Shown here piece after piece: positions 4,876 to 33,669 of a DNA stretch of 33,669 nt (positions are counted from its first letter, which is position 1; every line of letters begins with the position of its first letter). Location: positions 1 through 33,669 of the forward strand of contig JAHFOS010000029.1 of NCBI GenBank assembly GCA_023261545.1, read 5' to 3'. The notes under the pieces were generated by a model. It was not told the origin of the DNA and searched no databases. It saw only the letters and a program-made list of their open reading frames with translations. Source of the stretch: a bacterium (GTDB lineage: Bacteria > Planctomycetota > JADGBV01). The position numbers were made by a program, and so were the translations under genes.

Positions 4876-4906
4876 TTTAGTCTTGCCGCAAAAATCCCCG
4901 CCGTTC

Positions 4907-6037: not shown

Positions 6038-6089
6038 GTCAATTGCGGCTCAGCCGCCATGCTCGGGTCCCATCGCCGTTCACAGTCTT

Positions 6090-6344
6090 GGCTCATCCGA
6101 ATAATGCGTACTTTTCTGGGATTTTTAACACGGGCACACGGTCGAGTAAGTCTGAAAACAAGGCGATCTGCCGGGGGGATTTTCCACAGATTGCACAGAT
6201 TAACTCTGATAATAATCAATCCGGGCCATCCTTTTTAATCGGTGCAAATCTGTGTAATCTGTGGATGCTCCCGAGTTGAGAACGCAGAGAGCCGAGAACA
6301 AATGAGGGGCACCCTGCCAGAGGTACGCATTCTTCGAATGAGCC
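6090..6344 (+). mobile_element. MITE-like element, family A copy 1
   Basis: A 255-bp element with imperfect terminal inverted repeats: left GGCTCATCCGAATAATGCG at 6090-6108, and right CGCATTCTTCGAATGAGCC at 6326-6344, its near complement. It is flanked by an exact 8-bp direct repeat, ACAGTCTT at 6082-6089 and 6345-6352, which looks like a target-site duplication. An inner inverted repeat runs from TTTTCCACAGATTGCACAG near 6180 to AATCTGTGTAATCTGTGG near 6247-6264. No coding capacity. It fills most of the gap between the ABC ATPase gene and dtd. Copies 2 and 3 are at 26649-26896 (inverted) and 29297-29552. Confidence 0.8.
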
Positions 6345-6446
6345 ACAGTCTTTCACGATAGCTTGGCCGACCAGGAATCAATTCCGCCCGCCTCTTTTTC
6401 CCTGCAAGTCCTCGGCGCGCCCTAGAATTTGACCAGGAAATCCGTC

Positions 6447-6949: not shown

Positions 6950-7024
6950 CGGGGTGTAGCGCAGCTTGGCTAGCGCGCACGGTTCGGGTCCGTGAGGTCG
7001 TGAGTTCAAATCTCACCTCCCCGA
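6950..7024 (+). tRNA. tRNA-Pro (anticodon CGG)
   Basis: A 75-nt cloverleaf can be drawn by eye. The acceptor stem begins C1 and pairs with G72, the C1-G72 pair with A73 being characteristic of bacterial tRNA-Pro. The anticodon stem is CACGG/CCGTG around loop TTCGGGT, giving anticodon CGG (6985-6987) with G37. The T arm is GTGAG-TTCAAAT-CTCAC. One acceptor pair is T6-T67, a mismatch. The 3' CCA is not encoded. Confidence 0.93.
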
Positions 7025-7915: not shown

Positions 7916-8206
7916 ATCTGGAACTCAGGAAAAAATCGTGGGGGATCGCCCGCTCTGCAAAAACCCGTCCACGCTTGTCTTCGAAATTTAATTTTCCTGA
8001 GAGCCTGCTTGAAATGTGTCTTTCATGTCGCTTTTTAATATTTTATAAATAATGTTTTACCACAGAGACACAGAGAGCACAGCGATAATATGAAGAAATA
8101 CTTAAATCGCTATTTTCGCCTCCGCATATTCTCAGCGTCCTCTGTGTCTCTGTGGTGAGTAAATTCATACTTTTTAAACAGGCTCTGAGTTCCTGAGTTC
8201 CAGATT
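7916..8206. repeat. Family C repeat, copy 1, interrupted by element B1
   Basis: The ends are ATCTGGAACTCAGGAA (7916-7931) and its complement in TTCCTGAGTTCCAGATT (up to 8206). Homology to copy 2 (17810-17918) continues to about 8237 on the right. The copy is split by element B1 at 8001-8185; without it the repeat is about 103 bp, like copy 2 at 109 bp. Non-coding. It ends close to the stop codon of the minus-strand astA, as copy 2 ends close to that of the LysM gene. Confidence 0.72.
8001..8185. mobile_element. MITE-like element, family B copy 1, nested in family C repeat
   Basis: 185 bp with ends GAGCCTGCTTGAAA (8001-8014) and TTTTTAAACAGGCTC (8171-8185), imperfect inverted repeats. A TGA flanks each side (7998-8000 and 8186-8188), consistent with a 3-bp target duplication. 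The centre holds a long imperfect hairpin, CCACAGAGACACAGAG near 8060 and CTCTGTGTCTCTGTGG near 8139-8154. No coding capacity. Copy 2 is at 32042-32254. Confidence 0.75.
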
Positions 8207-22250: not shown

Positions 22251-22604
22251 CCTTGTCGAACCATCCGCCGTTCGCCCTTTATCCCCCGCTTCGGGGGATG
22301 AGCCCGTCGAAGCCCGTCCTGAGCAGCGTCGAAGGGGGTGGACGGCGGTGAGACCGCGGCCCGTTCATGCTTCGACAAGCTCAGCACGAACGGACCTGAA
22401 TGCCGGTGGCGAAAAACAAGGACACGTTCTTGGAGCCGAACTATTCCACCTTGTCGAACCATCCGCCGTTCGCCCTGAGCCTGTCGAAGGGTGGACGGCG
22501 GTGAGACCGCGGCCCGTTCATGCTTCGACAAGCTCAGCACGAACGGACCTGAATGCCGGTGGCGAAAAACAAGGACACGTTCTTGGAGCCGAACTATTCC
22601 ACCT
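22251..22604. repeat. Tandem pair of dispersed-repeat units
   Basis: Two units start with CCTTGTCGAACCATCCGCCG at 22251 and 22449. They share a perfect 116-bp direct repeat (22336-22451 and 22489-22604), which includes TGCTTCGACAAGCTCAGCAC. Unit 1 carries an extra hairpin segment (CCCCCGCTTCGGGGG). Related copies are at 4907-4977 and 24836-24962. An open frame crosses the units but only because the repeat has no stop in that frame. This fills the gap between ispH and leuA. Confidence 0.88.
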
Positions 22605-30800: not shown

Positions 30801-31841
30801 CTATTTCCTTTCATCCGCCGCCAGAGCGATGGTCAGCTTGAACAAAGCGATCTCTCCGGGATCGTAGGCCGTGAAATCCGGACGAAAAAGGTCGTGCTGC
30901 CAGACCGCCGGATCCGGATCGCCGGGAAGATGACCCCAGTTCAGGTGGGTCTGGGTCCTGCCGTTCACCAACCCCCAGTGCATCGCGCCGATGCGTTCCG
31001 CGCGGAAGACCGGCAGGCAGGCGGCGACGGTGGAGCCATTTCCGCGGCACATCCATTCGGTGCAGATCACGGGACGGCCGCGCTCGTTGAGCTGCTGGAT
31101 GCGTTTTTTCAACCCCTCCGGAGCATCGTAGCTGTGAAAGCTGTTCACGTCGCTCAGGCGGAAGGCCATGTCGTCGAGCTTGGGGTTGTTGTTCCACACA
31201 CCCAATGTCAGCGGCTGCGCGGGATCGATTCCTCTGGCCCAGCGAAAGACATTTTCGACGAGCGGGAGCGTGACCTCGCCCACGGGGAAGCTGAGCTTGC
31301 CGATGCAGACGCCGTTGGTGGGCTCGTTGTACAAGTCCCAGAGCAGGAGGCGCGGATCGTCCCGGAAAGCGCCGATCAGGTCCTTCACATACGGTTCGAG
31401 GCGCGGCCATGCCTTGGGATCGCGCACGATGGCGTGCCCGGGGGAGGGCGACCAGCCGTTGCCATACCAGCCCGGGATCATCCTCGGCTGGGGGCCGAAC
31501 ACCGGGTCCGCTAGGGTGCCGAAACAGCAGTCGTCAAACAGGGCGGGGATCACCCGGATCCCGCGGGCATGACAAATCTCCATGAAGCGCGCGAACCGTG
31601 ACTTGAACGCTTGGGGCTCCCTTTCCCAGACCACGAAGGGCAGGACCACGCGCGCGCAATTGAAGCCGATGTCCTGCGCCAGCGCCAGCTCGCGATCGAT
31701 AAGGGCCGGATCAAAACCATCGTCCATCCACATCTCCGTGTAGTTGATCGCATGGGACGGGACGTAGTTGAAGCCGCACAGCCAGGGCTGGCGCTCGTAC
31801 CAGCTCCAGGCCTCTTCCGCCGGCCATGGGTTCGCGTTCAT
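30801..31841 (-). CDS. Glycoside hydrolase family 5-like (beta-mannanase/cellulase superfamily)
   Basis: 346 residues with a TIM-barrel pattern. The acid/base is Glu173 in LLLWDLYNEPTN and the nucleophile Glu262 in VICTEWMCR; both are in the clan GH-A positions at strands 4 and 7. Other marks: CGFNYVPSHAINYTEMW at the start and SFHSYDAPE before strand 7. There is no signal peptide, so it is cytoplasmic or exported otherwise. It could hydrolyse beta-mannosides, beta-glucosides or related glycans; substrate is not shown. A few residues follow the barrel. Related entries are often annotated only as cellulase-family proteins. Confidence 0.82.
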   Translation of the reverse strand: MNANPWPAEEAWSWYERQPWLCGFNYVPSHAINYTEMWMDDGFDPALIDRELALAQDIGFNCARVVLPFVVWEREPQAFKSRFARFMEICHARGIRVIPALFDDCCFGTLADPVFGPQPRMIPGWYGNGWSPSPGHAIVRDPKAWPRLEPYVKDLIGAFRDDPRLLLWDLYNEPTNGVCIGKLSFPVGEVTLPLVENVFRWARGIDPAQPLTLGVWNNNPKLDDMAFRLSDVNSFHSYDAPEGLKKRIQQLNERGRPVICTEWMCRGNGSTVAACLPVFRAERIGAMHWGLVNGRTQTHLNWGHLPGDPDPAVWQHDLFRPDFTAYDPGEIALFKLTIALAADERK

Positions 31842-31873
31842 GAGAAGGGGCGCCTCATGGCTTTAAGCTGTAA

Positions 31874-32038
31874 GAGCCCGTCTCATAAGCCGCTTCGTCG
31901 GCCCGAGGCTGAACAGAGTCAAGGCGGGCAAGGCGCGCAAAGCCGGCGCTAGCGCGGAGGATATCGCCGATGCAGCGCAACGCGGCATGCCGCAGACGAT
32001 GCCCAGCCGAAGCCAGAATGGGCTTTTCAAACAAGCCC
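31874..32038. mobile_element. MITE-like element, family D, next to B2
   Basis: 165 bp with ends GAGCCCGTCTCATAAG (31874-31889) and CTTTTCAAACAAGCCC (32023-32038). These imperfect inverted repeats resemble the family B ends. Flanks are TAA (31871-31873) and TTA (32039-32041). The centre differs from family B and has no CACAGAG hairpin. A 70-residue open frame covers it but has no support as a gene. Confidence 0.5.
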
Positions 32039-32041
32039 TTA

Positions 32042-32254
32042 GAGTTTGTTTGAAAAGTGTCTTTCACATCGCATTTTAGTATTTTATAAATAATATTTTA
32101 CCACAGAGCGCACAGAGCGCACAGAGCGCACAGAGCGCACAGAGCGCACAGAGATAATATGGCGAAATGCTTGAAATCTCTAGTTAGCCCCTGAATATTC
32201 TCAGTGTCCTCTGTGTCTCTGTGGTGAGTAAATTCATACTTTTTAAACAGGCGC
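32042..32254. mobile_element. MITE-like element, family B copy 2, at the stop codon of the S16 peptidase gene
   Basis: 213 bp with ends GAGTTTGTTTGAAAAG and TTTTTAAACAGGCGC, homologous to B1. Flanked by TTA on both sides (32039-32041 and 32255-32257); the right TTA is the TAA stop of the minus-strand peptidase gene. It contains a 9-bp tandem repeat, CACAGAGCG, five full units from 32102 plus a partial to 32153, which B1 lacks. Conserved right part with B1 runs through CTCTGTGTCTCTGTGGTGAG. Confidence 0.75.
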
Positions 32255-33669
32255 TTAGATGCCCTCGCGTATCACTTTTTCCATCAGGTTGCTGTTGGCC
32301 TCCATTTCGTTCAGCCGGCCCACCAGCGTGTTCCTGCACTTCGTGAAGTCCCCCTCGGCCCCCGTCAGGTTGATCTGGTTTTGCTTGGTGGACCCGGCGT
32401 TGTACGCATCGCGAGCGCGCTGCAGCTTCTGAGCGGAGGACAAGAAAGACGAGCACGATTCGTACAGCGATTTGATGTCGGGATGCACCAGACCGCGCAT
32501 GCTGCTCAACCGCCCGGACATCCCTTTGTACTGGTCCTGGTTCATGGGCACGAGCTGGTTGTAGAAAATGGACTGCCGGCAGGGGCCGATGGTGTTGAAC
32601 AGGCGCGCCAACGACGCGCTGCGCGACAAGGTCTTGGGCATGTTGCCCGCGGCCAGCTCCAGCAGATATTTCGCGGATACGTGCTGGGGGCACGACTTCG
32701 CGATCTCCTCCAGCGTTTCCCGCGCCTCCTTCTTTTTGTAGAATCCGCTCTTCTCATTCTCCCCACGAAACAAGGCGAACTTGTCGAAAGCCGCGCTCGT
32801 CTCGCCCTCCTGCTTCGGCTTGAGCAGCCCAATGGCCTCGTCCACGTTATTCACCGACAGGATCTGCACCCGCCACAGCGTTTCCAAGGGATACAGCAGC
32901 ATCATGTCCTGCACCTGTTCCTCATTCTCCTTGGGTATCAAGACGTACTTGCAGCCGTCCATCATGGCGCCGCGAATTTTCGCGGCGATGCCGCCCACCT
33001 TGCGGATCTTCCCATCCACCGTGACGTCGCCCGTGATGGCGACCGTCTGATCGATATCGAAATTGTCGAAGAGCGACAGCATCAGGATAGCAAAGGCCGC
33101 CCCGGCGGAGCCCCCATCCTTGGGAGTGTATTTGTCGCCGAAACTGACGCGCGTCTCGCTGGCCTCCCAAAATGGGTAGCGGACATCAACGAAGCGTCGC
33201 GCCTCGTCGAAGGAGATTTGCATCTCATCCCCCACGCGATTCTGAATGCCGAGGGTGCCGCTGTGGGAGTTCGACGGCAACGGCTTGGCGACGATGATGA
33301 TATCCAGCACGCTTCCCATGTGTTCGCCATTGGGCAACTGCTGCACCACCAGTCCCTTGATGGTGCTGAGCCGTTTCATGAACTTCTTGTTCTTGGAGGT
33401 TTCGCTCGTCACCTCGGGCTTCGCGGCGGAGTCAGGCGTCGGCCCACCCGTCTGCGCCGGAGGGCGAGCCGTCTCCTGGCCTTCGTCCACCGCCGGCGCC
33501 CAGTCCCAATCCAGTTTGTTCTTCTCCAGGTACAGTTCCAAGTTGAAAATGGCATCGTCGTTGCGCGGATCGATGCGCTTGGCCAGCCAGCACAAATAAG
33601 CCCCCAGCTTGGCGTCCTCCGTATTCAAGTTTTGCATCAGCGACACCGCCGTTTTCGTCAACGCCTGAG
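32255..33669 (-). CDS. Lon-type (S16) peptidase-domain protein without visible AAA+ module (partial, N-terminus outside window)
   Basis: The frame is open to the window edge, so the TTG at 33661 is probably not the real start; at least 470 residues. The peptidase domain has the Ser in PKDGGSAGAAF (codon near 33107-33109) and the Lys in KVGGIAAKIRGA (near 32978-32980), forming the Lon Ser-Lys dyad. ITGDVTVDGKIRKVGG and KYVLIPKEN are also typical of Lon. No Walker motifs in the part visible. Upstream is a helical region and a Pro-rich linker, downstream about 180 helical residues without known domain. A function in regulated or substrate-limited proteolysis is inferred. Confidence 0.82.
   Translation of the reverse strand, partial: QALTKTAVSLMQNLNTEDAKLGAYLCWLAKRIDPRNDDAIFNLELYLEKNKLDWDWAPAVDEGQETARPPAQTGGPTPDSAAKPEVTSETSKNKKFMKRLSTIKGLVVQQLPNGEHMGSVLDIIIVAKPLPSNSHSGTLGIQNRVGDEMQISFDEARRFVDVRYPFWEASETRVSFGDKYTPKDGGSAGAAFAILMLSLFDNFDIDQTVAITGDVTVDGKIRKVGGIAAKIRGAMMDGCKYVLIPKENEEQVQDMMLLYPLETLWRVQILSVNNVDEAIGLLKPKQEGETSAAFDKFALFRGENEKSGFYKKKEARETLEEIAKSCPQHVSAKYLLELAAGNMPKTLSRSASLARLFNTIGPCRQSIFYNQLVPMNQDQYKGMSGRLSSMRGLVHPDIKSLYESCSSFLSSAQKLQRARDAYNAGSTKQNQINLTGAEGDFTKCRNTLVGRLNEMEANSNLMEKVIREGI

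Follow-up and report, generated by a model that had tools for sequence, protein, structure and literature searches.

A MITE of the IS5/IS1031 type at the stop codon of an S16 peptidase gene, and the TNA targets of its family

How does a repeat element come to lie exactly at the stop codon of a gene whose protein remains whole? The question is raised by B2, a 213-bp MITE at positions 32042-32254 (plus strand) of the window, by which we mean the entire stretch of 33,669 nucleotides that was analyzed. B2 was delimited by its paired terminal repeats and by end-to-end alignment, and it contains no transposase gene. Its terminal inverted repeats are GAGTTTGTTTGAAAAG on the left (32042-32057, plus strand) and, in minus-strand reading, GCGCCTGTTTAAAAAG on the right (32239-32254). 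Directly outside GAGTTTGTTTGAAAAG... and ...CTTTTTAAACAGGCGC there is a TTA on each side (32039-32041 and 32255-32257). On the minus strand the right TTA reads TAA and is the stop codon of a gene with an S16 (Lon C-terminal) protease domain (32255-33667, minus strand), which runs for 470 codons up to the contig edge, where the frame is still open (Pfam match Lon_C/S16, E=2.4e-19). A sequence-only reading of this DNA had taken the two TTA as a 3-bp target duplication, by which insertion copied the stop codon and left the protein intact, and had suggested that the IS5 family (IS1031 group) could mobilise the element. It was exact on the TTA pair and on the stop codon; the span that it gave, 32039-32257, comprises B2 plus both copies of the duplication.

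In order to place B2 in a family, the genome (4.56 Mb in 288 contigs, 62% GC, assembly 91% complete) was searched with its sequence. The search returned 51 matches, and pairing of ends in the stretches fetched around them yielded 26 full-length, non-coding copies of 176-274 bp, referred to as the B family. They fall into two subfamilies of about 185 bp, the type of B1 and B2, and about 228 bp. B1 (8001-8185, plus strand, 185 bp) also lies in the window and has, as had been noted, a TGA on both sides (7998-8000 and 8186-8188). The terminal inverted repeats of the family carry GAGCYTGTTTAAAAAG at either end, and consensus columns 1-19 pair with columns 196-214. The interior consists of a CACAGAG hairpin and a 9-bp minisatellite of variable repeat number. 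In B2 the core hairpin (32100-32227, plus strand, identified by folding) pairs a left arm ACCACAGAG... with a right arm ...CTCTGTGTCTCTGTGGT, with z-scores of -2.6 for the DNA fold and -2.8 for the RNA fold, and the left arm holds 5.8 copies of the unit CACAGAGCG (32102-32153, plus strand, Tandem Repeats Finder). Alignment of the copies indicated that length varies largely with the number of 9-bp units: the copy at C135:15474 has more units than B2, and in the copy at C43:7607 the opposite arm is expanded. A consensus fold of 16 copies backs the hairpin, with little covariation. The flanking DNA is unrelated from one copy to another. B copies are thus short and multicopy, lack a transposase gene, and have terminal inverted repeats and a target site duplication, i.e. 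hallmarks of MITEs. Outside its own genome, B2 had no match at E<=1e-10 in a further 58 genomes of the phylum and none in plasmids, nor did its inner sequence match viral contigs.

The CACAGAG hairpin is not confined to the B family. Copies of the hairpin ACCACAGAGRCACAGAG...CTCTGTGYCTCTGTGGT stand alone in many unrelated contigs, among them viral contigs (L252-L331), where solo hairpins lacked the shared GAGCCTGTTT/TNA ends. In the genome of B2 the hairpin is also found in a second repeat family, F, with about 16 copies (L372-L387). A sequence search gave no published description of the hairpin. A chimera (L031/L389, at about 32150-32238 of G000:C29) is half B end and half F family; the two halves meet in the common CACAGAG core, as recombination or template switching might produce.

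The listing of flanks for every B copy, which the sequence-only reading had named as the check, bore out the target duplication. The same trinucleotide was found at both ends in 21 of the 26 copies, and it was always TNA, with N being A in 6, T in 6, C in 5 and G in 4 cases. Neither unrelated trinucleotides nor longer duplications emerged as the pattern. When the comparison was shifted outward by 1-3 positions, none of the 26 copies had identical flanks, which fixes the duplication length at exactly 3 bp; shifts of up to 8 gave at most 4/26. TNA was present on 25/26 left and 25/26 right flanks, and the five copies with non-identical flanks include some that abut another element or have decayed. 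The target consensus extends to C-TNA-G, with C before the TNA and G after it, each in 30 of 42 symmetric readings. Since B ends are GAG...CTC, each junction rebuilds CTNAG. There are two abutting pairs, one in the window, where a further element, E, meets B2 across a shared TTA (E|TTA|B2), and one at C219:50638|TTA|50826; both would fit insertion at rebuilt CTNAG sites.

Element E (31874-32038) is a second MITE, with ends GAGCCCGTCTCATAAG / GGGCTTGTTTGAAAAG, a TAA at 31871-31873 and, on the other side, the TTA at 32039-32041 that is also the left copy of the B2 duplication. It represents a separate family with copies at C24, C118, C212 and C88, related ends GAGCTTGTCCATAAAT and TNA flanks; in the window copy the right end resembles that of B. 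The copy at C212 has TAA on both sides. The TAA and TTA flanking the window copy differ by one base, which a single substitution would explain. With B2 and E taken out, 29 bp would separate the S16 stop codon from the start codon of the following gene on the same strand (30801-31841), which makes it probable that the two elements inserted between the genes of an operon-like pair.

The window holds further repeats. A distinct MITE-like element at 6090-6344 has ends GGCTCATCCGAATAATGCGTAC / GTACGCATTCTTCGAATGAGCC, an 8-bp repeat ACAGTCTT on either side (6082-6089 and 6345-6352), a core with CACAGATT-type repeats, and relatives at about 26649 and 29297. At 22336-22604 a 116-bp sequence is exactly repeated in direct orientation with a spacing of 153 bp, and a family of 90-bp repeats that include TTCGACAAGCTCAG-like sequence occurs at 4900, 22267 and 24835. 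A plus-strand tRNA gene at 6950-7024 (Rfam RF00005) overlaps a 289-codon minus-strand ORF.

The IS1031 group is reported to prefer a TNA target and to generate a 3-bp repeat (PMC12016507). The occurrence of all four TNA words among the B copies agrees with this rule, and the proposed fit of the B targets to this group held. A search of genome contigs with the pattern TNA-GAGCYTGTTTRAAAAG gave matches across many phyla, among them numerous MITEs with identical TNA flanks; MITEs that share the B ends and have such flanks occur in Poribacteria, Desulfobacterales, Gottesmanbacteria and Raymondbacteria. Two matches enclose transposases of the IS5 family (NF033580). The poribacterial insertion sequence (L157:5128-6015, 888 bp) reads TTA, GAACCTGTTTGAAAAAG ... 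CTTTTAAAACAGGTTC, TTA, and its transposase scores 204 bits against NF033580. The element of Acetobacter garciniae (L116:6461-7341) has ends GAGCCTGTTTGAAAAG ... CTTTCCAAACAGGCTC, an interrupted NF033580 gene, and TTA on one side with TAA on the other. Within the phylum, other NF033580 elements have ends starting with GA and TNA duplications, e.g. L229, with GAGCCTATCCGAAAAC at either end and a TAA duplication, in a scan that required TNA. B thus shares with the IS1031 group the 3-bp TNA duplication, and its ends are common to an autonomous IS5-family element of other bacteria.

In the genome of B2 itself, at 91% completeness, no cognate transposase was found with NF033580, PF13340 or a protein query, PF13586 gave nothing above the cut-off, and single-ended GAGCCTGTTT matches, when followed, reached no transposase. 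Genes with PF01609 (DDE_Tnp_1) were also considered as mobilisers; they proved to be IS1380-like and IS4-like only, and the two main ones lack B ends. The suggested search for an IS5/IS1031 transposase with B-like ends therefore succeeded in the poribacterium and in A. garciniae and not at home. Mobilisation by this family is supported by the TNA target, the 3-bp repeat and the near-identical ends on NF033580 elements elsewhere; what speaks against it is the absence of the transposase from this assembly. Judging from ends and targets, we infer that an IS1031-type transposase would have moved B2 in trans. Assignment of the B family to the MITEs of the IS5/IS1031 type, ordinary in kind, is well supported. 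With no matching transposase in the assembly, the family appears, as far as the assembly shows, to behave as an orphan MITE.

Among described systems, members of the IS1031 group such as ISLrh (PMC12016507) resemble B in target and duplication length, and the ends of ISLrh (GAACCTGTCTAGTATCT) and B (GAGCCTGTTTAAAAAG) are both of the type GARCCTGT. These insertion sequences are about 860-900 bp long and encode a transposase, whereas B elements are about 200 bp long and do not. The BrickBuilt MITE of Porphyromonas gingivalis (PMC4596501) also combines IS5-type ends with a tandem-repeat minisatellite of variable length; however, its unit is 23 bp instead of 9 bp, it has yielded no consistent duplication, in contrast to the clean 3-bp TNA of B, and its parent insertion sequences are present in the same P. 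gingivalis genome, whereas none was found for B. BOX elements of Streptococcus pneumoniae (PMC3049150) are likewise small repeats and often lie at the 3' ends of genes. In 36 of 58 overlapping CDSs the stop codon is drawn from the BOX repeat, with no clear protein loss (PMC3049150). There the repeat itself supplies the stop, whereas in B the duplicated target restores the original one. BOX was the only precedent for stop-codon insertion by such elements that a literature search gave.

Each of the TNA words TAA, TGA, TTA and TCA is a stop codon on one strand (TTA and TCA as complements), which accounts for about a quarter of B copies lying on stop codons. According to a codon-usage model, which was trained on window genes and like the loci rests on small samples, 7 of the 26 copies have inserted at a TNA that ends a coding frame as its stop codon. 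The position of B2 exactly at a stop codon is real and not peculiar to it. The model took the place of two procedures that failed, raw open-frame length, too loose at 62% GC (background 12%), and greedy longest-ORF gene calling, which chose wrong strands; two apparent stop-codon cases were removed in this way. The seven genes encode the S16 peptidase (B2), a pyruvate dehydrogenase E1 beta-like protein, an LptB-like ATPase, a histidine kinase, a GDYXXLXY protein, a DUF4159 protein and a CBM protein. The six copies besides B2 are complete and their genes have intact Pfam domains, and in the LptB-like and DUF4159 proteins the match to the family model runs nearly to the end, so that the copied stop and the spared protein claimed for B2 recur in six further genes. 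A one-sided B copy at C189 and the E copy at C88 also end at gene stops.

As a background, stop codons account for 1.7% of TNA sites overall (P=2e-7) and for 5.2% when the only sites counted are TNA that is non-coding or a stop (P=3e-4). The tests on stop codons were devised once the pattern in this first set had been seen. Among 46 flanks in an independent second set, the elements with B ends from other genomes, 6 close a frame that is at least 200 codons long, with 0.53 expected (P=2e-5). A stricter control, TNA located 1-60 nt downstream of stops, gave odds ratios of 1.9 (P=0.17) in the own genome, 3.0 (P=0.047) in the others and 2.3 (P=0.023) combined. Since the excess over downstream TNA is only about 2.3-fold, survivorship explains much of it.

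The most probable course of events, which we hold with high confidence as a whole, is the following. An IS1031-type transposase would cut at TNA, best at C-TNA-G, with a 3-base stagger, and gap repair would then duplicate the TNA. If the TNA that is hit ends a gene, the stop codon would be restored on the gene side and the protein stay whole. Such insertions would survive, and copies would pile up at and just after stop codons. Of this, the analysis directly shows the element with its copies, the duplication of 3 bp at TNA, genes of the IS5 family that have matching ends in other bacteria, and the excess at stops. No empty B2 site was found, and the same-family genome G001 has no match to the S16 gene. 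A transposase or host factor that actively favours stop codons or the 3' ends of genes would make the excess a matter of targeting. This is suggested by the 2.3-fold enrichment over two data sets and by the location of 24 of the 26 copies within a span that runs from 3 nt ahead of a gene's stop to 127 nt beyond it. We nevertheless regard it as unlikely: the own genome alone gave no significant enrichment, most intergenic TNA lies near a stop anyway, and the C-TNA-G preference describes a short palindrome in which stops are no more frequent than in other TNA (3 of 84 non-coding CTNAG). Gene pairs at B copies were not significantly biased in orientation (convergent, divergent). Most of the excess would come from survival and not from stop codons being recognised, and a modest favouring of stop codons beyond survival is possible.

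B may also have been retained at gene ends for a function, its hairpin being a mobile terminator or a stabiliser of the mRNA 3' end for the S16 gene and for other genes. The hairpin in B2 is strong, B elements follow directly on stop codons, and other bacteria commonly have solo CACAGAG hairpins, some of them between A- and T-tracts. Yet no T-run directly follows the B2 stem, no terminator was called inside B2, and both-sided changes affect only 1 of 55 pairs, giving no sign of selection on hairpin pairing, which makes such a role rather improbable. That the TTA pair is a coincidence, with B being fixed repetitive DNA spread by recombination and never transposing, can practically be dismissed. 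AT-rich ends make TTA common, and no transposase was found in the genome, but the duplication is exactly 3 bp in 21 of the 26 copies and involves all four TNA words, against 0/26 in the offset control. This refutes coincidence, and the unrelated DNA around the copies speaks against it as well.

The B family illustrates that a MITE family can outlive its transposase or occur without one. We tentatively propose that TNA-targeting elements have a built-in safe harbour, and that stop codons may be preferred, possibly actively favoured, landing sites across phyla. The stop-codon logic of such elements is general and testable, and we met no earlier description of it in the literature searched. A 3-bp target that is always a stop on one strand, together with a duplication that returns this stop, would offer low-cost entry into compact bacterial genomes. 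It also yields a prediction of the sites at which IS1031-type elements and the MITEs derived from them should lie, which can be tested on any genome collection.
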